Positions 1 to 37,453 of a stretch of DNA of 46,923 nt are shown here, in pieces. The translations under genes and the position numbers were made by a program. The stretch's first letter is position 1. Each line of letters opens with the position of its first letter. The notes below the pieces were generated by a model. The model was not told the DNA's origin. It did no database searches and was given only the letters and a program-made list of their open reading frames with translations. The DNA is from Geobacteraceae bacterium (GTDB lineage Bacteria > Desulfobacterota > Desulfuromonadia > Geobacterales > DSM-12255), in contig JACABD010000027.1 in assembly GCA_013377075.1 (NCBI GenBank), positions 4,918 to 51,840 of the forward strand. The letters run 5' to 3'.

Positions 1-381
1 AACCGCCCGCCGCACCCCTTAAGCGGCAATCAGCTGGTGATCGACAGCCAGCTTCTTTACGAGGATACCTCTCACATCGAGCGGCTTCTTTTTAAAATGA
101 AAAAGTACGATTATGCCCGGACCATAAAGGGAGCATACCACCAGAACCCGGCCTACACCCACTGGTATGGCAATGCCGAACTGAAGATGGATCTGATAGA
201 TATCAAGGCCGAGGCGGGCAGGCTGAAAAAAGGGAGAGCTCAGGGGGCTGTTTCAAACAAGCCGACTGTAGAAGAAGAGCTGAAAACCCTGGAGAAGAAG
301 TTGGCGCGCGGTGCCATCAGCGATATGGAATATCAGGCGGAGAAAAAGAAAGTTCTGGACGATTTTATCAATCGGAAGTGA
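1..381 (+). CDS. C-terminal part of an unidentified protein (runs off left edge)
   Basis: The reading frame is open from base 1, so this is the 3' end of a gene that starts outside the window. An internal GTG at 37 has no convincing ribosome binding site and is probably not the start. The visible 126 codons encode a polar, charged sequence with a Tyr-rich stretch (AYTHWYGNAEL), then a Gly/Ala linker and a last ~35 residues rich in Glu and Lys (EEELKTLEKKL...ISDMEYQAEKKKVL). That ending has the look of a SHOCT-type short C-terminal helical domain (inference). It converges on the GAF/GGDEF gene and overlaps its 3' end by 14 bp. I do not recognise the family and assign no function. Confidence 0.7.
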   Translation, partial: NRPPHPLSGNQLVIDSQLLYEDTSHIERLLFKMKKYDYARTIKGAYHQNPAYTHWYGNAELKMDLIDIKAEAGRLKKGRAQGAVSNKPTVEEELKTLEKKLARGAISDMEYQAEKKKVLDDFINRK

Positions 382-26625: not shown

Positions 26626-29565
26626 ATGAAAATAGAACCGGCAAAATCGAATCTCGCAAAAAACCGTACCTGGTTGCGTGAAAACATGAATCCTTACTAT
26701 TTCATCAGTATGCAGGATGAGCCGAAAGCAAATGCCATGCTCGAACGGGAACTGCATAGCCTGCAGGATAACAGAAGGCTTGTGCTTGCAGACAGGGAAA
26801 ATACCCTGATCCTTGCCATTGTCAACCGCCCCGGAACCCTTTACGAAACCCTGAGCCGTATTCATGAAAGAGAGATCTCCTATGCAATGATCTCCCACTC
26901 TGAAAACAATCTGCCGAATATGGAACAGTCGCTGGAGATACAGCGCTTTGAATTCGAGCGCAAGAGCAATCAGGAGGTTCTGGCCGGTAAAGATGTCAAG
27001 GTGCCGGAAGCGGTGAGAAGAAGAGTCAGGGCAGATCTGAAGGTAAACTTTCCGGACTTTGTCATGGGTGACCTTGATAAACTGCTTCAGCTTCTCTGGC
27101 TCAACAACGAGAATTATGTCAGAACCTCAAACCCGACCAGGGTGGCGCAGCTCATGCAACTGCTGCAAAGGGGAAACAAAAACGGGGGGTTTTACCTCGG
27201 ACTTGAGGAGATGCCCGGAAGCAGGGAATACAGGGTGCTTCTGGCTGTAGGCAACCCGCCCCAGCGTGATTTTCTCCTCCAGATCATGGAGGTGTTCAAC
27301 CGACTCGAACTGGGTGTGAACAGGGCATACTGCCTTACCATAAATAACGGCATTCACCCTTATTTCCTCGGCACGTTCTATGTCAGCAGAAGAGATGGCG
27401 CCATTCTTGATAAAGAGAGCGGGCAGTTCAGATCTCTGCGTAGCGAGCTCTCCATTACGCAGATCCTTGCCACAAGATCCCACAGTTACAAGGAGTTTGT
27501 CGTCCCGAAAATAATGGGGGGCGAAGATGCCGCTCTGATGAACATCTTCATCGCCTTCTGCCACACAAATCTTGCCCACAACAGGCCGGACAGATACAGT
27601 CTTGATGATGTGCAGAGTGCGTTTCACAGCCACCCGGAAATATCAATGCAGCTTTCAAGGCTGTTTCGAGCCCGTTTTGAGCCGGCCATAGAGGGGCGCG
27701 AACAGGCTTATCTCAGCCAGCTTGACGAGTGCAGCAAGGCTCTGGCTGGCTATAATACCGGTCACAGATATCTTGACGAAGTGCGGAGGACGATCTTCTC
27801 CTGCTGCCTGGAATTTATTGTCCATACACTGAAAACCAACTTTTTTGTCATGGAGAAACAGGCGGTTTCGTTCAGGCTTGACCCTGCTTATCTCGCTAGG
27901 CTGGGAGACGAGGCCATATCCGATCTTCCGGCTGCTGTTCCGTTCAGGGTCACTTTTTTCTTTAACCGCTTCGGTTTCGGTTACCACATCGGTTTTTCCG
28001 ATATTGCCCGGGGTGGCTGGCGGACTGTTATCGCAAGGACAGCCGATGACTTCATCACCAATGCGAACAATCTCTTCAGGGAGAATTTCGTCCTTGCCCA
28101 TACCCAGCACCTAAAAAACAAGGATATTTATGAAGGGGGCTCAAAGCTTGTCACCATCTTAAATGTCTCTGATCTCAAACGTGACGAGAAGTCACTGGAG
28201 GATTTAAGGCTTTTCAAGCTGCAGTACGGGGTGACCAATGCCTTTCTCGATATTTATGTGACAAAGGATGGCGTGGCTCTGCATCCGCAGGTTGTTGACT
28301 ATTACCGTGAAGACGAGCCGATAGAGCTCGGACCCGATGAAAACATGCATGACAGCATGGTCGAGGCCATTGCCTGGCTCTCGGCAAAGCGGGGGTATAT
28401 CCTCGGCATCGGGCTCATGTCGAGCAAAAAGGTCGGCATAAACCACAAGGAGTACGGCGTAACATCCGCCGGTGTGGTCAAGTTTGCCGAAATCACCATG
28501 GCGGATCTTGGCATAGATATAAGGAAAGAGAGCTATAGCGTCAAATTTACCGGAGGCACAAACGGCGATGTTGCCGGAAATGCCATGAGGCTTCTTCTGG
28601 AGCGCTCTCCCAAGGCGCAGATAACCCTCATCCTTGATGGAACCGCAGCGCTCTTCGACCCGCAAGGGGCTGATCACAAGGAGCTGGGACGCATTCTGCT
28701 CAAAGAGGATCTTGATGCATTCTCGCCAGAATCTCTTCATGTTGGCGGCTTCATGCTTTTCAGGAGCGGCAGCAGAAAGGAGGGCTTCCGGGAGACTTAT
28801 CGGAAAGTGATCCGTGAGGCAAACGGGCTTAAAGAGGAGTGGGTCTCGGTCGACGAGTTCTCGCGAGAGTACGGCGGGCTCCCATTCAGTGTAAAAGCCG
28901 ACCTTTTCATCCCGGCCGGCGGCAGACCTGAGACGATCGACTCGTCAAACTGGGAGCGCTTTTTCCTCGCTGACGGCTCGCCATCTGCAAGGGCAGTGGT
29001 TGAAGGGGCAAACTCCTTTATAACGCCCGACGCCAGGGTGCAACTCCAGAAACGCGGAGTCATAATAATGCGTGATGCCTCAGCCAACAAGTGCGGTGTC
29101 ATCTCTTCATCATATGAGATAATCGCTAACCTGCTTCTGTCTAACGATGAGTTCCTGGCGGAAAAGGAGCGCTATGTCGGTGACGTGCTTGAGATCCTCG
29201 AAAAGAGGGCAGGCGATGAAGCCAGACTGATCCTGCGGCGCAAGCGTGAGCTGCCGGGTTGCCTTTACACTGAGATTTCCGACGCCATCAGCACGGAGAT
29301 AAATGCCAATTACAGCAGACTGTTCAGGTTTTTTCAGGCAAGACCGGAGCTTGCGCTCCAGCCCCTGTATAAAAAAGCAATCCTTTCTCACCTGCCGAAA
29401 ATGCTTCAGGAAGAGCCCCGTTTCAGGCAGAGGATAAAGCGCCTTCCGCAGAAATATCTTTCTGCGATCCTTGCTGCGGAGATAGGTTCATCAATGGTTT
29501 ACAGGGGGGACAGGGATGCGGCTTTTGAGGATGAGGTCAGGCTTCATCTTTTGCGAAATTTTTAA
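26626..29565 (+). CDS. gdh: NAD-specific glutamate dehydrogenase (large, ~115-kDa class)
   Basis: A 979-aa oxidoreductase converting glutamate to 2-oxoglutarate and ammonia with NAD. An ACT-like regulatory segment is near the N-terminus (ENTLILAIVNRPGTLYETLS), followed by a long alpha-helical region. The catalytic core lies about 430-850: DIARGGWRTVIAR, IYEGGSKLVTILN, ELGPDENMHDSM, the Rossmann-type TGGTNGDVAGNAM, and VVEGANSFITPDAR. The length is between the small hexameric GDHs (~450 aa) and the 180-kDa class, fitting the 115-kDa group. AAAGGAG and GGAGG both precede the ATG. Its end overlaps the cytochrome gene by 4 bp. Confidence 0.92.
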   Translation: MKIEPAKSNLAKNRTWLRENMNPYYFISMQDEPKANAMLERELHSLQDNRRLVLADRENTLILAIVNRPGTLYETLSRIHEREISYAMISHSENNLPNMEQSLEIQRFEFERKSNQEVLAGKDVKVPEAVRRRVRADLKVNFPDFVMGDLDKLLQLLWLNNENYVRTSNPTRVAQLMQLLQRGNKNGGFYLGLEEMPGSREYRVLLAVGNPPQRDFLLQIMEVFNRLELGVNRAYCLTINNGIHPYFLGTFYVSRRDGAILDKESGQFRSLRSELSITQILATRSHSYKEFVVPKIMGGEDAALMNIFIAFCHTNLAHNRPDRYSLDDVQSAFHSHPEISMQLSRLFRARFEPAIEGREQAYLSQLDECSKALAGYNTGHRYLDEVRRTIFSCCLEFIVHTLKTNFFVMEKQAVSFRLDPAYLARLGDEAISDLPAAVPFRVTFFFNRFGFGYHIGFSDIARGGWRTVIARTADDFITNANNLFRENFVLAHTQHLKNKDIYEGGSKLVTILNVSDLKRDEKSLEDLRLFKLQYGVTNAFLDIYVTKDGVALHPQVVDYYREDEPIELGPDENMHDSMVEAIAWLSAKRGYILGIGLMSSKKVGINHKEYGVTSAGVVKFAEITMADLGIDIRKESYSVKFTGGTNGDVAGNAMRLLLERSPKAQITLILDGTAALFDPQGADHKELGRILLKEDLDAFSPESLHVGGFMLFRSGSRKEGFRETYRKVIREANGLKEEWVSVDEFSREYGGLPFSVKADLFIPAGGRPETIDSSNWERFFLADGSPSARAVVEGANSFITPDARVQLQKRGVIIMRDASANKCGVISSSYEIIANLLLSNDEFLAEKERYVGDVLEILEKRAGDEARLILRRKRELPGCLYTEISDAISTEINANYSRLFRFFQARPELALQPLYKKAILSHLPKMLQEEPRFRQRIKRLPQKYLSAILAAEIGSSMVYRGDRDAAFEDEVRLHLLRNF

Positions 29566-30267: not shown

Positions 30268-30343
30268 ATGGTTTGCCGAAATCTGGCAAAGGTTGCAGGC
30301 AGGCGCAAAGGTGGTTTTATTATAGAATATGCAAGACTTTCGC

Positions 30344-30365
30344 CTATACTGTTATCAGAGTATAG
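30344..30365. repeat. Perfect 7-bp inverted repeat upstream of the hybrid kinase
   Basis: CTATACT (30344-30350) and AGTATAG (30359-30365) are exact reverse complements with an 8-nt loop, 54 bp before the GTG start at 30419. TATACT inside it could be a -10 box, so it may be an operator. Confidence 0.45.
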
Positions 30366-30418
30366 TGCATAAGACTCATCAGGACATGTGCGCTATTCAA
30401 GGCTGCGGAGGGTTCAGA

Positions 30419-32866
30419 GTGAATACATTTGAAAATTTCCCTGACTGGATATTGGAAAAGTGGCAGGAACTGGCCGATATCCTGGCGCAAACCATTGATG
30501 TTCCCGCGGCTCTGGTAATGAAGTATGAGAATGACAACATGGAAGTCTTCATCTCAAGCCGATCTGAAAGCAACCCTTATCATGTGGGAGAGAAGGAAGA
30601 GTGGCACGGCCTTTTCTGCGAAACCGTCATAAAAGCACAAGACAGGTTGCTGATTCCAAATGCGCTCCAGGATGAGAAGTGGGACCGTAACCCGGACATA
30701 AAGCTAGGGATGATCGCCTATCTGGGGTTCCCGCTGAATTTCCCGGATGGTCAGCCGTTTGGAACGCTTTGCATTCTTGATAAGAATGAAAGACATTTCA
30801 CAACGTTGAACGAAAAACTGATACAGCAGTTCAGGAGTGTAATGGAGCTGGATCTGGCTTTAATGCAATCGTTCAACCTCAAGACAAACCAGTTAGCGGC
30901 AACAGTTGTTAATGAAGTTGCTGATCGCAAACAGGTGGAGGAGCGGATCAGGCAGAGCGAAGAGAAGTACCGGGCTCTGATCGAGACTACTGCCACCGGA
31001 TTTCTTATCCTGGACTCCTGCGGCAGGGTCGTTGATGCCAATGACGAATACGTCCGGCTTAGCGGCCATGCTACCTTTGCCGAAATCGCCGGGCGCAGTG
31101 TTGTTGAGTGGACTGCTCCCCACGATCTGGAGCGCAATGCGGTTGAAGTGAAAAAGTGTATTGAGCTTGGCCTGGTTCGCAATCTGGAAATTGACTACAT
31201 TGACCGGCGTAATGAGATCACACCAGTTGAAATCAACGCAACGGTCATTGGCAGCGGGACTGACTACCGGATAGTGTCGCTCTGCCGCGACATCACCGAA
31301 CGTAAACAGGTGGAGGAGAGCATCAGGCAGAGTGAAGTCAAATTCAGGGTGCTGACTGACAACTCGCCTCTGGCAATTATCGAGTCGTCCGGAGTCGGCC
31401 AGATGGCGGTCTATTATAATCAGACCGTCACCAGGCTGTTTGGTTATACAATCGAAGACCCACCATCAGCAGAACAGTGGTGGCCCCTGGCTTATCCGGA
31501 CGAAAACTACCGCCGGGAAGTCGTTGCGGAGTGGAGTCGCCGGGTTGCCCATGCCATCGAAACAGATTCGTCAACCGAACCACTGGAAACAGTGGTTACC
31601 TGCAAGGACGGGGCGAAAAAATATATTTCATGGAGCTTTGTCGCCACAGGTTCGCAGTACTGGGTGTTCGGACAGGATCTGACCGAGCGCAAACATGCGG
31701 AAGAAGAGCGGACTAAGCTGGAAGAACAGCTCCGTCAGGCACAAAAGATGGAGGCAATCGGCACTCTGGCCGGCGGAATCGCCCATGACTTCAATAATCT
31801 CCTCAGTGTTATTCTGGGATATGGAGTTATGGTTCAGGACAAACTTGCAGCTGACAACCCTGTAAAAAAATATATGCATGAAGTGTTGACTGCCGGTGAA
31901 CGGGCAGCCGATCTCACAAGGAGACTGCTCGCCTTCAGCAGAAAGCAGTTGGTCGAAGTGAAGCCGTGCAGTATCAACGAAATTATTATCGGCATGGAGA
32001 AAATGCTTTCACGGATTATGACCGAGGATATCACCTTTTCGCTGGAGCTTTCCGGCAGGGAGATGACTGTCATGGCCGATGTCGGCCAGATAGAGCAGAT
32101 CCTGATGAACCTTATCTCAAATGCCCGCCATGCCATGCCTGACGGAGGGGATCTTACCATCAGCACAGCTGTGGAGGAGATTGGCAGTGAGTTTGTTGCG
32201 GCATCAGGATATGGCACGCCCGGTAAGTATGCCCGTTTATCGGTTATGGATACAGGTTGCGGCATGGATGCAGATCTTCAGAAAAAGATATTCGAACCGT
32301 TTTTTACGACAAAAGGTGTTGGAGAAGGTACCGGTCTTGGACTTGCTATTGTCTACGGAATCATGCGCCAGCATGATGGGTACGTAAAGGTCTGTAGCGA
32401 GCCGGGAAAAGGGGCTGCAATATCGATATTTCTCCCCCTGATCGAAGGGAACAGTCTGAAAAGTGCCGATGCCAAAGAGTTTGTACCTGTTGTCAGAGGG
32501 ACAGAAACCATTCTCATCGCAGAAGACGAGCCCCAGTTGAGGGAACTCTCCCGGGCGCTTTTTGAGCCATTCGGTTATACTGTCATTACGGCAGGGGATG
32601 GTGAAGAGGCTGTTTCCATATTTAGGGAGAATCCGGACAAGGTTGATATTGTGATCCTTGACATGATTATGCCGAAGAAAAACGGCAAGGAAGCATATGA
32701 GGCCATAAAAGCTCTGAGGCCGGATGTAAAGGTGCTGTTTGTCAGTGGCTATACGATGGATTTCATCACCCGGAAGGCGTTGCTGCAGGATGGCATGGAT
32801 TATATTGGCAAGCCGGTCTCTCAGAGGGATTTGCTGCAAAAAGTACGGGAGATCCTTGATAAATGA
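30419..32866 (+). CDS. Hybrid sensor histidine kinase (GAF-PAS-PAS-HisKA-HATPase-REC)
   Basis: An 815-aa cytoplasmic kinase with no membrane segment. Domains in order: GAF (about 15-155; VPAALVMKYENDNMEVF), PAS (about 175-300), PAS (about 305-420, ending VFGQDLTERKHAEEE), HisKA with phospho-acceptor H456 (TLAGGIAHDFNNLLSV), HATPase (N box NLISNARHAM, G1 DTGCGMD, G2 GEGTGLGLAIVYGI), and a receiver with D748 (VILDMIMPKKNGKEAY). The start is GTG 30419, seven bases from GGAGGG; an ATG at 30329 lacks a site. The signal is unknown. It ends 17 bp before the repeat-protein gene and is probably co-transcribed with it. Confidence 0.93.
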   Translation: MNTFENFPDWILEKWQELADILAQTIDVPAALVMKYENDNMEVFISSRSESNPYHVGEKEEWHGLFCETVIKAQDRLLIPNALQDEKWDRNPDIKLGMIAYLGFPLNFPDGQPFGTLCILDKNERHFTTLNEKLIQQFRSVMELDLALMQSFNLKTNQLAATVVNEVADRKQVEERIRQSEEKYRALIETTATGFLILDSCGRVVDANDEYVRLSGHATFAEIAGRSVVEWTAPHDLERNAVEVKKCIELGLVRNLEIDYIDRRNEITPVEINATVIGSGTDYRIVSLCRDITERKQVEESIRQSEVKFRVLTDNSPLAIIESSGVGQMAVYYNQTVTRLFGYTIEDPPSAEQWWPLAYPDENYRREVVAEWSRRVAHAIETDSSTEPLETVVTCKDGAKKYISWSFVATGSQYWVFGQDLTERKHAEEERTKLEEQLRQAQKMEAIGTLAGGIAHDFNNLLSVILGYGVMVQDKLAADNPVKKYMHEVLTAGERAADLTRRLLAFSRKQLVEVKPCSINEIIIGMEKMLSRIMTEDITFSLELSGREMTVMADVGQIEQILMNLISNARHAMPDGGDLTISTAVEEIGSEFVAASGYGTPGKYARLSVMDTGCGMDADLQKKIFEPFFTTKGVGEGTGLGLAIVYGIMRQHDGYVKVCSEPGKGAAISIFLPLIEGNSLKSADAKEFVPVVRGTETILIAEDEPQLRELSRALFEPFGYTVITAGDGEEAVSIFRENPDKVDIVILDMIMPKKNGKEAYEAIKALRPDVKVLFVSGYTMDFITRKALLQDGMDYIGKPVSQRDLLQKVREILDK

Positions 32867-32883
32867 GATGCAAGGGAGGTTTT

Positions 32884-33231
32884 ATGCGACACCTGCTTCT
32901 GAGTGCGTTTATGTCATTTTTGCTGGTTTCTCCGGTTCAGGCCGATAGTTCTGCCAAGGAGAAGGGGAGAGAGGTCGGCGAGGCTTTCAAAAAGGCAGGC
33001 CAGGAGACCGGTCAGGCTTTCAAAAAGGCCGGACAGGAAACCGGCAAGGCGTTCAAGGAAGGTGGCAAGGAGATCGGTCAAGGGTTTAAGGAGGCTGGTA
33101 AAGAGGCCGGCAAAGAGGCAAAAAAGCAGGGGAGAACTGTAGGTGAGTGGTTTCGCGATGCTGGTAAAAAAACCGGTGAAGGGTTCAAGGAGATGGGCCG
33201 GAATGTGAAGAAGTTTTTCACGGGGAATTAG
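32884..33231 (+). CDS. Secreted protein of eight 11-residue GxxxG repeats
   Basis: A 115-aa precursor: signal peptide MRHLLLSAFMSFLLVSPVQA, a short linker, then eight tandem 11-residue units covering residues 28-115 to the last residue. Typical units are GREVGEAFKKA, GQETGQAFKKA, GKEIGQGFKEA, GKKTGEGFKEM. Gly is at position 1 in all eight and position 5 in seven, and Phe at position 8 in seven. An 11-residue period (three helical turns) with 4-3-4 spacing suggests a hendecad helix with a Gly/Phe face and a charged Lys/Glu face. Group 3 LEA proteins and amphipathic membrane-surface helices have similar periods (analogy only). GGGAGG precedes the ATG. It follows the hybrid kinase closely. Confidence 0.85.
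   Translation: MRHLLLSAFMSFLLVSPVQADSSAKEKGREVGEAFKKAGQETGQAFKKAGQETGKAFKEGGKEIGQGFKEAGKEAGKEAKKQGRTVGEWFRDAGKKTGEGFKEMGRNVKKFFTGN
32965..33228 (+). repeat. 33-bp tandem coding repeat (8 units)
   Basis: Eight in-frame 33-bp units encode the 11-residue repeats of the secreted protein. Units 1-3 are most alike at DNA level (GAGGCTTTCAAAAAGGC, CAGGCTTTCAAAAAGGC), so the array probably grew by slippage or unequal exchange. Unit 5 is the most diverged. Confidence 0.8.
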
Positions 33232-33249
33232 AGTTCGTTCCCAAAATGG

Positions 33250-33300
33250 GGTTTAGACTTTATTCGTGTCCATCCGTGTAACCCGTGGCTAAAGGTTTTG
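33250..33300. repeat. Degenerate 10-bp direct repeats (TTCGTGTCCA type)
   Basis: The gap before the GH13 gene contains TTCGTGTCCA, TCCGTGTAAC and CCGTGGCTAA in tandem (about 33263-33292). Intergenic stretches of this style, with CGTG at about 10-bp period, recur in many bacterial genomes as I recall. No function is assigned. The rest of the 131-bp gap has the small palindrome GGTATGATACC at about 33334-33344. Confidence 0.4.
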
Positions 33301-33362
33301 ATGTTTTTCATAAGCCCGCTGACTTTTTACGTGGTATGATACCGTTCAATTAACCTGGATAA

Positions 33363-36300
33363 ATGGTACTGATAATGACAGGATCAGCTATTGGCAGTGA
33401 TTATTTCCCCTATTCAATACAGATCAGAAACAATATATGGGAGCGGTTCTCGCTCCTTGAACTGCACCAAGACCTGAAACGCTCCGCCAGGCCCCGTATC
33501 ATGTTCTATCGTGAGCTTGCATCAAGGCTTTCTTCAGGCGGTGCCGTGGCCATGGCAGGCAATCTCAATCTCTACTCCCTGCAACTTGCCGTGCAGCGCC
33601 ATATCGTCTCCCGATACCTTGATCAAGAGCATCCCGAACTACTCCCATTGATCCTGGATGCTGCCGGTATCCCGGCCGGCTCAAACAATCTTGAGCAGCT
33701 GGCAAAGGCCTTTTGTCGGCTCTTCCCGGGCACCCCCTTTCTTGACAATCCAAATCTCGACCCGCTCCAGTGGATCAGGGGTGACGGCAACGAAGTCAGT
33801 CGTCAGAAACTCCTTGTAGGGGAGATACTGATCCTCTCTGTAGCCGCGTCAAACAGGGCGCTGGAGAGTTTTCGCCAGGTCATTGACTGGAAGCCGCTTC
33901 TTCTTGAGAGCTCATCGGCTGATGTCGCCAGCGGAATTGAAAAGGCGCTGGCTGCGGCTCCACCCGTTGCCGCCATCGGTCTGACCCTGCCGGAAATTCT
34001 GCGTCTGCCGCTGAAGGCAGCTCCTGACTCACTCTACGAGCAGCTCAGGTTCATGAAGGTGAACTGGCAGGTGGCGATTCCCGATGAGCTGATCCCTGAA
34101 ATCCTCGGTGCCTTCGCCATCTCCGAAGAGGAGGGGCGGATGTTTGCCGGTCATGGCTGGAATCCCGGTGCTGCGCCGGTTTTGGAGTTTACTGGCGGGG
34201 TGCATCTGCCGGGAACCAATGACTATTATCCGGAGCCGGAGCGGTTCTCGTCAGATACCGACTGGATGCCCAATGTTGTCCTTCTGGCCAAAATGGTCTA
34301 TGTCTGGTTAGGCCAGCTGGCAAAAAAATATGACCTTGAGCTGACCAGGCTCGACCAGATCCCCGATGAAGAGCTTGATCTTTTGGCAAAACGTGGCGTA
34401 ACCGGCCTCTGGCTTATCGGCCTCTGGGAGCGCTCCCCTGCTTCCCAGCATATCAAGCAGATCTGCGGTAATCCCGAAGCCATATCATCGGCATACTCCC
34501 TTTTTGACTACGCCATTGCCGCTGATCTTGGCGGCGAAGCGGCGCTCATCAAGCTCCGCGACCGTGCGCTAGTGCGTGGCATCCGCCTTGCCAGCGATAT
34601 GGTGCCGAATCATACCGGCCTCTACTCTCGCTGGATCGTCGAACATCCCGACTGGTTCATCCAGCTGGAGTACCCGCCATATCCTGCCTACACCTTCACC
34701 GGTGTCGATCTCTCACCAAATCCCGACATCAGCCTCCATATCGAAGACGGTTACTGGGAGCGGCGCGATGCAGCGGTTGTCTTCAAACATTACGATCACA
34801 GAAGCGGCCAGACCCGCTACATCTACCATGGCAACGATGGCAGCAGCACTCCGTGGAACGATACCGCCCAGCTCAACTACCTCAATCCCGAGGTGCGTGA
34901 GGCTGTCACCGGGACCATCCTTCATGTTGCCCGGCTCTTTCCGATCATCCGTTTTGACGCTGCCATGACCCTGGCTAAGAAACACTACCAGCGGCTCTGG
35001 TTTCCGCAACCGGGCCATGGCGGCATTCCTTCACGCCCTGAGCATGGCATGACAAGGGCTGAGTTCGATGCTGCCATGCCCGATGAATTCTGGCGGCAGG
35101 TGGTGGACCGCATCGCTGTCGAAGCTCCGGACACACTCCTTCTGGCAGAGGCATTCTGGCTGATGGAGGGGTACTTTGTCCGCACACTGGGGATGCACCG
35201 GGTCTACAACAGCGCCTTCATGAACATGCTGAAGATGGAGGAGAACGCCAAGTACCGCCAGACCATCAGGAACGTCCTCGAATTCAACCCCGAGGTGCTG
35301 CAACGCTTCGTCAATTTCATGAATAACCCTGACGAAAAGACTGCTGTCGAACAGTTCGGCCGGGAGAGCAAATATATCGGTGCAGCAGTTCTTCTTGTCA
35401 CCATGCCCGGTCTTCCCATGATCGGCCATGGCCAGATCGAGGGGTACCACGAAAAGTACGGCATGGAGTACAAGAAGGCCTACTGGGATGAGCCGGTTGA
35501 CGAGCACCTTGTCAAGGAGCATGAAAAGCGGATCTTCCCGCTGATGCGCCGAAGATGGCTCTTTTCCGGGGCTGACAACTTCCGCTTTTACGACTTTTTG
35601 TCAGGCGGACACCCGAACGAAGATGTCTTTGCCTACTCGAACCGTGCAGGTGGTGAGCGGGCAATCGTCCTCTATCATAACCGTTTTGCAACAGTGAGCG
35701 GCTTTATCAAACACTCGGTCAGTTATGCCGTTAAAAACGGCGCAGGCGATATGGTGCTGACCGCATCAACCCTAGGTGAATCCCTGGGACTCAACGGCGA
35801 TGGCCGCCATTACTACGTCTACAGTGATTATGCCGACGGCTGCGAATATATCAGAAACGGCAGGGAGCTTTGCAACGAAGGGCTCCGGATAACCTTGTCG
35901 GCCTACGACTATCACGTTCTCATGGATTTTCGCGAAATATGGGATGACGAGTTTGGCACCTGGGGGAGACTCTGCCACCAGCTTGAGGGGCTCGGCGTTG
36001 CTTCCATTGATGATGAAGTGAAGCAGATTCGTTTTGCCGGTGTTATCGACATTTTGCGTCTTCATCTTGAAAAGAGTCATCTTCTTCTTGCCGATGGGTT
36101 TGACGGGCTTTCTCAGAAGGAGCTGGCTGCTTCAAGGGAAGAGTTCACCCTTCGCCAGATGGAGTTTTTCTCAGCAGTTGCGAAGATAGCTGGGAGTAAA
36201 GAGCCGCTCAAAGGGACAATCTCCTGCCTTGCCGGAGAACTTGAATTTATTGAAGCTGCAATTGCGGCAAAGGAGACGATTCTTCAGGGTGAAAGTTCAC

Positions 36301-36779
36301 GGCTCCTCACAGCGGCCTGGCTGACTCTGCACAGGCTCGGTGAGCTTGATTCAGGATCAGAAGCACTAGAAGTTGTGCTTGAATACGGGCTGGACAGGCC
36401 GTTGGAGGAGGAGCTCTCTGGCGAGGCCGCAACTGAGGGTGATGTCATCGCAGAGCTTGATGTCGCCTCTGTCATGGCCCTTTTCAAGGCGATTCTCAGC
36501 TTTAATGGCTGTAAGTCCGCATCTGATCTCCGCTTGCAGGAGCTTTTCTCCGATAAAAATGTGGCATTTTTCATCGGGCTCCATGAAAGCGGCGGTTTCA
36601 AATGGTTTGTCAAGGAGCGCTGGGAGCTGCTTGTTGACTGGCTTGATTTTGCCGGAAGGATCTCTGGACAGATTGATGAGTCTGCCCAAAGCCAGTCAGC
36701 CAGACACGCAATAATACTCAAATCTGCTGCAAAGTCGTCTGGATACCGGCTTGACAGGTTTTTGGAGAATATGAAATGA
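33363..36779 (+). CDS. Large GH13 (alpha-amylase family) protein with N- and C-terminal extensions
   Basis: A 1138-aa protein without signal peptide, so cytoplasmic. The (beta/alpha)8 GH13 core lies about 300-760. Region I is DMVPNHTG (D412), the nucleophile is D532 in IIRFDAAMTLAKKH, the acid/base is E596 in LLLAEAFWLMEGYF, and the third carboxylate is D657 in FMNNPDEKTA. In that last region the usual NHD His is Pro. About 300 residues before the core and about 270 after it have no family I recognise; the C-terminal part is helical. It could be a glycogen, maltodextrin or trehalose-related transglycosylase or hydrolase, but the specificity is unknown. The stop overlaps the next gene as ATGA. 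ATG 33363 has only a weak site; ATG 33375 is possible. Confidence 0.88.
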   Translation: MVLIMTGSAIGSDYFPYSIQIRNNIWERFSLLELHQDLKRSARPRIMFYRELASRLSSGGAVAMAGNLNLYSLQLAVQRHIVSRYLDQEHPELLPLILDAAGIPAGSNNLEQLAKAFCRLFPGTPFLDNPNLDPLQWIRGDGNEVSRQKLLVGEILILSVAASNRALESFRQVIDWKPLLLESSSADVASGIEKALAAAPPVAAIGLTLPEILRLPLKAAPDSLYEQLRFMKVNWQVAIPDELIPEILGAFAISEEEGRMFAGHGWNPGAAPVLEFTGGVHLPGTNDYYPEPERFSSDTDWMPNVVLLAKMVYVWLGQLAKKYDLELTRLDQIPDEELDLLAKRGVTGLWLIGLWERSPASQHIKQICGNPEAISSAYSLFDYAIAADLGGEAALIKLRDRALVRGIRLASDMVPNHTGLYSRWIVEHPDWFIQLEYPPYPAYTFTGVDLSPNPDISLHIEDGYWERRDAAVVFKHYDHRSGQTRYIYHGNDGSSTPWNDTAQLNYLNPEVREAVTGTILHVARLFPIIRFDAAMTLAKKHYQRLWFPQPGHGGIPSRPEHGMTRAEFDAAMPDEFWRQVVDRIAVEAPDTLLLAEAFWLMEGYFVRTLGMHRVYNSAFMNMLKMEENAKYRQTIRNVLEFNPEVLQRFVNFMNNPDEKTAVEQFGRESKYIGAAVLLVTMPGLPMIGHGQIEGYHEKYGMEYKKAYWDEPVDEHLVKEHEKRIFPLMRRRWLFSGADNFRFYDFLSGGHPNEDVFAYSNRAGGERAIVLYHNRFATVSGFIKHSVSYAVKNGAGDMVLTASTLGESLGLNGDGRHYYVYSDYADGCEYIRNGRELCNEGLRITLSAYDYHVLMDFREIWDDEFGTWGRLCHQLEGLGVASIDDEVKQIRFAGVIDILRLHLEKSHLLLADGFDGLSQKELAASREEFTLRQMEFFSAVAKIAGSKEPLKGTISCLAGELEFIEAAIAAKETILQGESSRLLTAAWLTLHRLGELDSGSEALEVVLEYGLDRPLEEELSGEAATEGDVIAELDVASVMALFKAILSFNGCKSASDLRLQELFSDKNVAFFIGLHESGGFKWFVKERWELLVDWLDFAGRISGQIDESAQSQSARHAIILKSAAKSSGYRLDRFLENMK

Positions 36780-37453
36780 GACATTTTTTGCTGATATTCC
36801 TCGTAGTTATTTTTTCCGGCTGTGCCACGGCGCCGCTTCAGCTGCAGCCAGTTCACGGCGTTGCCATTGAGTCGCTACAGGGATCGGTGAATATCTCACT
36901 CTCATCTTCCGCCGGTCAGATGAGCGGTAACGGCGTCATTTTCTACAAGAGGCCGGACAGTTTCCGCCTCTCGATTCTTGCCCCGTTCGGCCAGATCATC
37001 CTGGATATAATTGTCGAAGGGGAGAAGGTCCTCTGCATCAAGGAGAGCCGCAAAACCGCCTGGAAAGGTACTGTTGCCGATCTCCCCGCTTCACTCGGTA
37101 CACGGATCTGGCCCCTGATGAGCTGGGTTGTGGAGCCCCCCCATCCGGCCGGTCCGTCCCTTGAACGGGCATTTGTACGTCCCGACGGATCAAGCGAAAA
37201 GATATTCTACGACACTGCCGGGTTTATGCAGAGGAAGGTCAATGCCCGCGGCGACGAGGTTTTCTACAGCGACTACCGGACAGTTGACAACATCGCCATT
37301 GCCAACCGGATCGAGATAAATGCCGCTGAAGGGAGCCGTCTGGTTCTCGCCTTTGACGATCCCGAGCTGAACCGTCCCATAGAAAGCGCAATCCTCAAGC
37401 CAAAACTGGACGGTTACGAGATACTCCCTCTTGCGGAGTTGCGTGGTTTTTGA
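36776..37453 (+). CDS. LolB-like outer-membrane lipoprotein
   Basis: A 225-aa lipoprotein: signal LLIFLVVIFSGC with the lipidated Cys at about residue 16. The mature part looks like the LolB/DUF4292 half-barrel fold that carries lipoproteins or other lipids: VAIESLQGSVNISLSSSAG at the start, GVIFYKRPDSFRLSILAPFGQIIL in the middle, and RIEINAAEGSRLVLAFDDPELN near the end. Assignment to LolB itself is unsure and no gene symbol is given. It starts inside the stop of the GH13 gene (4-bp overlap), which is an odd pairing of a cytoplasmic glucan enzyme with an envelope lipoprotein. Confidence 0.72.
   Translation: MRHFLLIFLVVIFSGCATAPLQLQPVHGVAIESLQGSVNISLSSSAGQMSGNGVIFYKRPDSFRLSILAPFGQIILDIIVEGEKVLCIKESRKTAWKGTVADLPASLGTRIWPLMSWVVEPPHPAGPSLERAFVRPDGSSEKIFYDTAGFMQRKVNARGDEVFYSDYRTVDNIAIANRIEINAAEGSRLVLAFDDPELNRPIESAILKPKLDGYEILPLAELRGF

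Follow-up and report, generated by a model that had tools for sequence, protein, structure and literature searches.

What does a small exported protein made almost wholly of eleven-residue repeats do in a bacterium of a kind that passes electrons through its envelope? The question is raised by one gene, here called REP, in a 46,923-nucleotide stretch of DNA from a Geobacteraceae bacterium (the window). REP begins 17 bp after the stop codon of a hybrid sensor kinase gene, a distance that a preliminary description had given correctly, and re-checking recovered the ORF, the frame and the eight units at residues 28-115 that the same description had reported (Table 1). Cleavage of the signal peptide, placed by inspection after PVQA and before D, leaves residues 22-27 as a linker ahead of the first unit, so that the mature chain consists of repeats from residue 28 onward and not, as first described, over its whole length. 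There is also an in-frame ATG at 32863, which shares ATGA (32863-32866) with the stop codon of the kinase and might serve as a coupled start for a 122-residue form; the start at 32884 is favoured because of the ribosome-binding site before it and the aligned homologues. REP has one copy in its own genome, and GC content gives no foreign mark for it or for the kinase gene.

Table 1. Coordinates of REP, its parts and its neighbours in the window
Feature	Position	Strand	Basis or remark
REP, 115-residue exported hendecad-repeat protein	32884..33231	+	ORF, coordinates and frame re-checked
Signal peptide, residues 1-21, signal peptidase I type, no lipobox Cys	32884..32946	+	Inspection; similar ends in aligned relatives
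Ribosome-binding site AAGGGAGG	32872..32879	+	AGGAGG-type sites in relatives
Eight 11-residue units, residues 28-115	32965..33228	+	33-nt spacing in the DNA
Conserved C-terminal stretch, GxxxGEWFRDxG ... FF	33130..33228	+	Alignment A1
Hybrid sensor kinase (GAF, PAS, HisKA, HATPase, receiver)	30329..32866	+	Local neighbour; not counted as a component of the system
Block of kinase and REP, missing at this site from G003 and G002	30277..33328	.	Left edge by BLAST, right edge by eye
Amylase-like gene, 1138 aa, directly downstream of REP	33363..36779	+	Order shared with four genomes of another family
LolB-like gene, 4-bp overlap with the amylase-like gene	36776..37453	+	Same overlap in L154

The repeat, its family and its predicted helix

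The units (GREVGEAFKKA, GQETGQAFKKA, GQETGKAFKEG and GKEIGQGFKEA, then GKEAGKEAKKQ, GRTVGEWFRDA, GKKTGEGFKEM and GRNVKKFFTGN) all carry Gly at position 1, as first described (8/8); the other two markers that had been assigned to every unit have one exception each, with Gly5 (7/8) replaced by Lys in unit 8 and Phe8 (7/8) by Ala in unit 5. There are 35 identities at a lag of 11 residues, where shuffled sequences average 9.4 (sd 2.7); none of 20,000 shuffles reached 35 there or at any other lag between 2 and 33. The repeat is not the product of fresh slippage, since in one register the DNA of the units is 61-82% identical to that of the first and all four Gly codons are used at unit position 1.

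REP belongs to a family that is conserved, under selection and unnamed. A 27-row profile found it in 78 of 141 Geobacterales genomes (E ≤ 1e-4), and in a sample of the phylum 13 of 395 genomes matched at E ≤ 1e-5. Among the matches as listed, these comprise 7 of 9 genomes from the order itself, none of 8 from elsewhere in the class and 6 of 378 others. An exported repeat ORF is clear in two of these last six (G415, G451) and plausible in a third (G189); the other three were not recovered by the ORF filter. The 34 homologous loci collected have record titles of Geobacter type, Desulfuromonadales type or broader, and the culturable species Oryzomonas japonica and Geobacter argillaceus carry members of the family. 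Ratios of dN/dS are about 0.06-0.22 in 13 overlapping pairs, several of which have a dS close to saturation. The family is covered by no Pfam or NCBIfam model, and a literature search on GxxxG hendecads, Geobacter hydrophilins and Geobacter periplasmic LEA proteins brought up no account of it.

Across 237 units from 32 members (counts inflated by keeping only units that fit two of the three marker positions, in tables that leave out L060, L062 and L063), Gly1 occurs in 232, Gly5 in 205 and Phe8 in 181; Lys or Arg is found in 214 at position 2 and again in 214 at position 9, Thr, Val or Ile in 206 at position 4, and Glu in 141 at position 3. The number of units varies among kin and forms a natural series of six to nine, with protein lengths of 93, 104, 115 or 126 in 26 of the 32 members, and a 22-residue super-period appears in some. 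Distant members keep the 11-residue repeat with Lys for Gly5 and Ala or Leu for Phe8, so the GxxxG step is not essential to the family; of the expectation that homologues would keep the repeat, the period thus survives and the unit number and two of the markers do not.

The hydrophobic moment of REP at 98.18 degrees is 0.465 (best of 10,000 shuffles, 0.29), all 32 members have a larger moment at 98.2 than at 100 degrees, and positions 7, 11, 4, 8, 1 and 5 make one weak hydrophobic face on a hendecad helix. AlphaFold2 predicts, with low confidence, one helix over residues 24-113 of REP (~90 residues; pLDDT 62, pTM 0.26) and one over residues 24-123 of a 126-residue relative (pLDDT 64); a structure lacking any helix had been named beforehand as a refutation, and both models came out helical. 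Low model confidence and 20% Gly fit a conditionally folding chain.

Such regularity could also mark a self-assembling periplasmic rod or spacer, whose helices pack against one another along the Gly/Phe stripe and whose length is set by the number of units. The frequency of Gly1 and Phe8 and the stepped series of lengths are in keeping with a rod, as is the use of 11-residue units with F/W markers by phage tape-measure proteins in the available part of one account (PMC3271669), and 11 of 27 members weakly match the tape-measure-like family phrog_167 (best E 3.5e-6). However, unit number varies among kin, the copies linked to MMPL exporters lose Gly5 and often Phe8, and a high Gly content disfavours a lone helix. 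The AlphaFold2 models are of single chains and carry no information on oligomers. On balance, a rod seems an unlikely answer.

The upstream kinase and the origin of the window copy

The preliminary description proposed that the kinase controls REP as its message partner, that is, that REP is an output partner of the kinase. The short same-strand gap, the lack of a good promoter just upstream of REP in the window, the joint absence of the two genes from G003 and G002 and the divergent kinase neighbours at L033 and L047 all speak for this proposal. Nevertheless, the linkage is not conserved in relatives. A kinase gene lies near 4 of 34 REP loci (divergent and upstream at L033 and L047, downstream at L035 and L061), a count that may be low because L035 was missed in the first neighbour scan and that includes seven loci with less than 3 kb upstream. 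At sixteen loci a same-strand ORF ends no more than 150 bp before REP. Fifteen of these ORFs were scanned (all but the one at L058, which nearly duplicates L057), and none is a sensor kinase; these neighbours include a metal transporter, a hydrolase, a phosphotransacetylase, a decarboxylase, MMPL exporters, a small anti-sigma-type ATPase (L042), a GGDEF protein (L053) and others. At E ≤ 1e-150, with 6 candidates scored per genome, only a same-genome paralogue (51%) and one G487 gene (45%) resemble the kinase, with partial coverage. In G003, of the same genus, the dehydrogenase, merR and amylase-like genes stand in order, the merR and amylase matches ~240 bp apart, with neither kinase nor REP, and G002 is alike at this site. 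The neighbour scans and these empty sites rule out kinase partnership as a general feature of the family, and for the window we consider it highly improbable. As a side observation, positions 26626-29565 encode a 979-aa protein that matches ELFV dehydrogenase and bacterial NAD-glutamate dehydrogenase models.

Many relatives appear to be transcribed independently. A TTGACA-16..18-TATAAT-like site at -75..-40 is present in 15 of 32 upstream regions, which share ancestry (expectation 0.9, maximum 5, in 500 mononucleotide shuffles, with A2 and T6 of the second box fixed and ≤ 3 mismatches allowed), so that about half of the relatives seem to transcribe REP alone. The window region, one of the 32, shows no such site at -75..-40, and the REP upstream regions hold no full match to a sigma-54 promoter.

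On the downstream side, REP stands directly before the amylase-like gene in five genomes, the window and four of the coded genus g11, at spacings of 56-135 bp in four of the five and with a fragmentary match in G486; the g11 genomes carry an MMPL gene 2.3-3.5 kb upstream of REP. The overlap of the amylase-like and LolB-like genes is shared by the window and G022 (L154). The amylase-like gene occurs in 137 of the 141 genomes of the order and within 5 kb of an MMPL gene in 10 of the genomes typed, typing being confined to contigs shared with REP or MMPL. Of aryl-polyene-type export genes, the window holds the LolB-like gene alone; around the L142 copy, LolA-like, LolB-like and MMPL genes stand with fatty-acid-type synthesis genes. 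No MMPL gene was found at E ≤ 1e-80 in the window genome or in three genomes of its genus (6 of 12 candidates scored in G000).

By its place in the trees, the window copy is a member of a derived, mostly solitary branch and not of the MMPL-linked branch: it groups with solitary f4 copies (99/97 with L005). Common inheritance with the g11 copies beside the amylase-like gene was rejected (AU p 4e-4, two of the four g11 copies being in the tree), as was one clade of four f1 rows (AU p 5e-9, in a test that leaves out the G003 and G009 copies, on a tree that leaves out G008, G011 and the second G004 copy). The second tree, which gives the f4 grouping and the g11 test, leaves out L009, L020, L023, L026, L027, L030 and the G003 and G009 copies, and unit homology in these trees is uncertain because repeats of unequal number were aligned. 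Since it groups with f4 rather than g11 copies and the f1 clade is rejected, the window copy was probably acquired by transfer. No REP match was found in plasmids, phages or viral contigs. A stretch behind REP, taken for a dispersed repeat, proved to be single-copy, and glycine-cleavage genes near both the window and the L032 copies were judged to be shared by chance.

Linkage to MMPL and Lol lipid-export genes

An earlier reading of REP as a gene with no conserved partner rested on loci mostly of the solitary branch and was overturned by a link to MMPL (RND-type) exporters, which emerged from the upstream-neighbour check and from 20 wider regions (L139-L158), mostly of distant copies. In these regions MMPL lies within 0.6 kb of REP in 11 and within 3 kb in two; none was seen in seven (L140, L151, L152 and L155-L158), of which L155 and L156 did not yield REP again at E ≤ 1e-5. 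With MMPL called at E ≤ 1e-80, REP lies within 5 kb of it in 22 of the 66 genomes holding both and within 0.6 kb in 15, and in 22/22 close pairs it is downstream on the same strand. The pairs span five coded genera (g9, g10, g11, g23, g2) in three families, related genera that do not amount to 22 independent events. The order LolB-like, MMPL, REP occurs at 12 loci, and at L064 and L146 MMPL and then REP run up to the contig end. At L142 (G027:C4, 2-5443), where the cluster was read only in part, a cut ketosynthase gene is followed by genes for a FabA-like dehydratase, LolA, LolB, MMPL and REP, with 6 bp from the MMPL stop to the REP start and a convergent B12-radical-SAM gene beyond. The older branch of the family, the one linked to MMPL, thus stands last in lipid-export gene clusters, a place that suggests a bacterial counterpart of the lipid-carrying apolipoproteins. 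Separately, at L042 (3465-6197), a solitary-branch locus, an MMPL gene outside the E ≤ 1e-80 set lies 0.7 kb downstream of REP.

Little is understood, in our view, of the route that special lipids take through the periplasm beyond an RND/MMPL exporter. We propose that REP is a periplasmic helix of apolipoprotein-like type that takes part in lipid export to the outer membrane, a reading that we regard as about equally likely to prove right or wrong. It draws on the linkage to MMPL, the L142 cluster and the weak apolipoprotein match of its REP, the order of REP and the amylase-like gene, the hendecad moment, the helix models and the low dN/dS. Sec would export REP and signal peptidase I would free it into the periplasm, where on lipid the 11-mers would form one long amphipathic helix of about 13.5 nm; the weak face (Gly1, Val/Thr4, Gly5, Ala/Gly7, Phe8, Ala/Gly11) would contact lipid and the Lys/Glu face water. 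Its putative partners are the MMPL exporter and LolA-like (carrier) and LolB-like (acceptor) proteins, and with them REP may shield, carry or receive a special lipid that is bound for the outer membrane or already in it. A precedent for the path is the E. coli aryl-polyene lipid, proposed in the available part of the source to reach the outer membrane via the LolA-like ApeL, the RND protein ApeM and the LolB-like ApeN (PMC8253772). The window copy, from a branch usually alone and often with its own promoter, is taken to serve envelope lipids likewise; because that branch is derived and mostly solitary and its genome shows no close MMPL, this role is inferred by homology.

Several findings weigh against the apolipoprotein-like reading. 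The window copy stands outside the MMPL-linked branch, in a genome where no MMPL was found at E ≤ 1e-80. Of the 66 genomes that hold both genes, 44 have no REP within 5 kb of MMPL on one contig, and a further 12 REP genomes show no MMPL. The MMPL-linked copies, which keep Gly1 and the period, have the poorer Gly5 and Phe8 patterns (often Lys and Ala, respectively), the structural models are of low confidence, and the alignment of repeats can inflate the kinship of MMPL-linked and solitary copies.

The main competitor is a stress protein of the envelope, similar to LEA group 3 and to hydrophilins, that would be unfolded when dissolved, turn helical on drying or on membranes, and protect membranes with no lipid cargo. 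Hydrophilins are defined by Gly above 6% and hydrophilicity above 1; REP members have 18-26% Gly and a net charge of +5 to +14 in 32/32, with GRAVY below -1 in 29/32 (-1.27 in the window). The frequent promoter-like sites favour this alternative, as do, in the accessible parts of two reports, the outer-membrane LEA-like protein BilRI, which has eleven 11-mers and is disordered by NMR (PMC8096337), and the rise in E. coli desiccation survival conferred by LEA-1 11-mers (PMC8670023). However, LEA_4 (PF02987) matches 0 of 27 members at E ≤ 0.1, and the fixed place of REP behind MMPL is left unexplained. Of the initial suggestion of an amphipathic hendecad helix lying on membranes, or LEA-like, the pattern and the single predicted helix have stood, and the LEA resemblance lacks that profile match. 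Finding the MMPL/Lol linkage moved our preference from the LEA-like to the apolipoprotein-like reading, and we now hold the former to be rather improbable.

If REP does act on lipids, a small helical protein fixed behind exporters would be a testable new part of the lipid path, and the six-to-nine-unit series a simple natural set for studying lipid binding by 11-mers. It is tempting to speculate further, and only tentatively, that REP acts as an apolipoprotein of bacteria, coating or carrying lipid in the periplasm as a helix of 11-mers. It would then be the fourth, unnamed part of an MMPL-LolA-LolB system that exports polyketide-type lipids to the outer membrane in Geobacterales, and its derived solitary branch would have moved between families and, in the window, settled once more beside an amylase-LolB pair.

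Comparison with known systems

Apolipoproteins and apolipophorin III (PF01442, PF07464) are exported amphipathic helices of 11- and 22-mers. The MMPL-linked L142 protein weakly matches both Apolipoprotein PF01442 (E 1.1e-4, 22.3 bits against a gathering score of 90) and ApoLp-III (E 2.9e-4, below cut-off), and some members share the 22-residue super-period. Unlike these proteins, REP is bacterial, smaller and Gly/Phe-regular, its lipid binding is putative, its scores are below cut-offs, and none of the 27 members of alignment A1 (which leaves out L009, L029 and L030) matches Apolipoprotein at E ≤ 0.1, a point against our reading.

Other resemblances are weak, and those to Moricin and tape-measure proteins follow the hendecad pattern. 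Pfam gives nothing above cut-off for the window protein. A membrane-active, moricin-like cationic protein might be entertained, as 22 of 27 members match Moricin (PF06451) at E ≤ 0.1 (best E 1.4e-7, in a member other than L017) and L017, alone of 10 members listed singly, passes the gathering score of 27.6 with 28.7. Yet the window protein scores 12.6 bits and L017 minus its signal peptide 17.8; one of two within-column shuffles of L017 scores 17.6 and the other has no Moricin match, nor have three free shuffles and a reversal. The signal peptide and hendecad pattern therefore carry the score, and we give this possibility very little credence. Weak PDB matches (best E 0.046 and 6e-4) to designed helical proteins, ATP synthase b, ribosomal S21 tails, an Arc variant and a glycosyltransferase were judged compositional, and identity with Ag473 was rejected (14.9 bits vs 100).

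Tape-measure repeats share the period of 11 with an F/W marker (PMC3271669, in its available part), but they belong to long proteins of phage tail clusters, whereas REP has 115 residues, is exported and matches no phage record; neither it nor its neighbours in the window are of that kind. LEA group 3/LEA_4 proteins and, in the part of the report available, Deinococcus DR_1172 (PMC6559209) resemble REP in their tandem amphipathic 11-mer units, the helix being only predicted for REP; the LEA group 3 unit, TAQAAKEKAGE, differs, and REP has an export signal. BilRI, too, is a hydrophilic, predicted helical envelope protein of 11-mers, although its units end in KD[A/T] and the available part of its description mentions no lipid-export link (PMC8096337). 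Finally, although the aryl-polyene gene table, over entries E to R in the available part of the source, lists no repeat protein, the L142 cluster is like the ApeL/ApeM/ApeN module in setting a LolA-like protein, an RND exporter and a LolB-like protein beside ketosynthase and dehydratase genes (PMC8253772).
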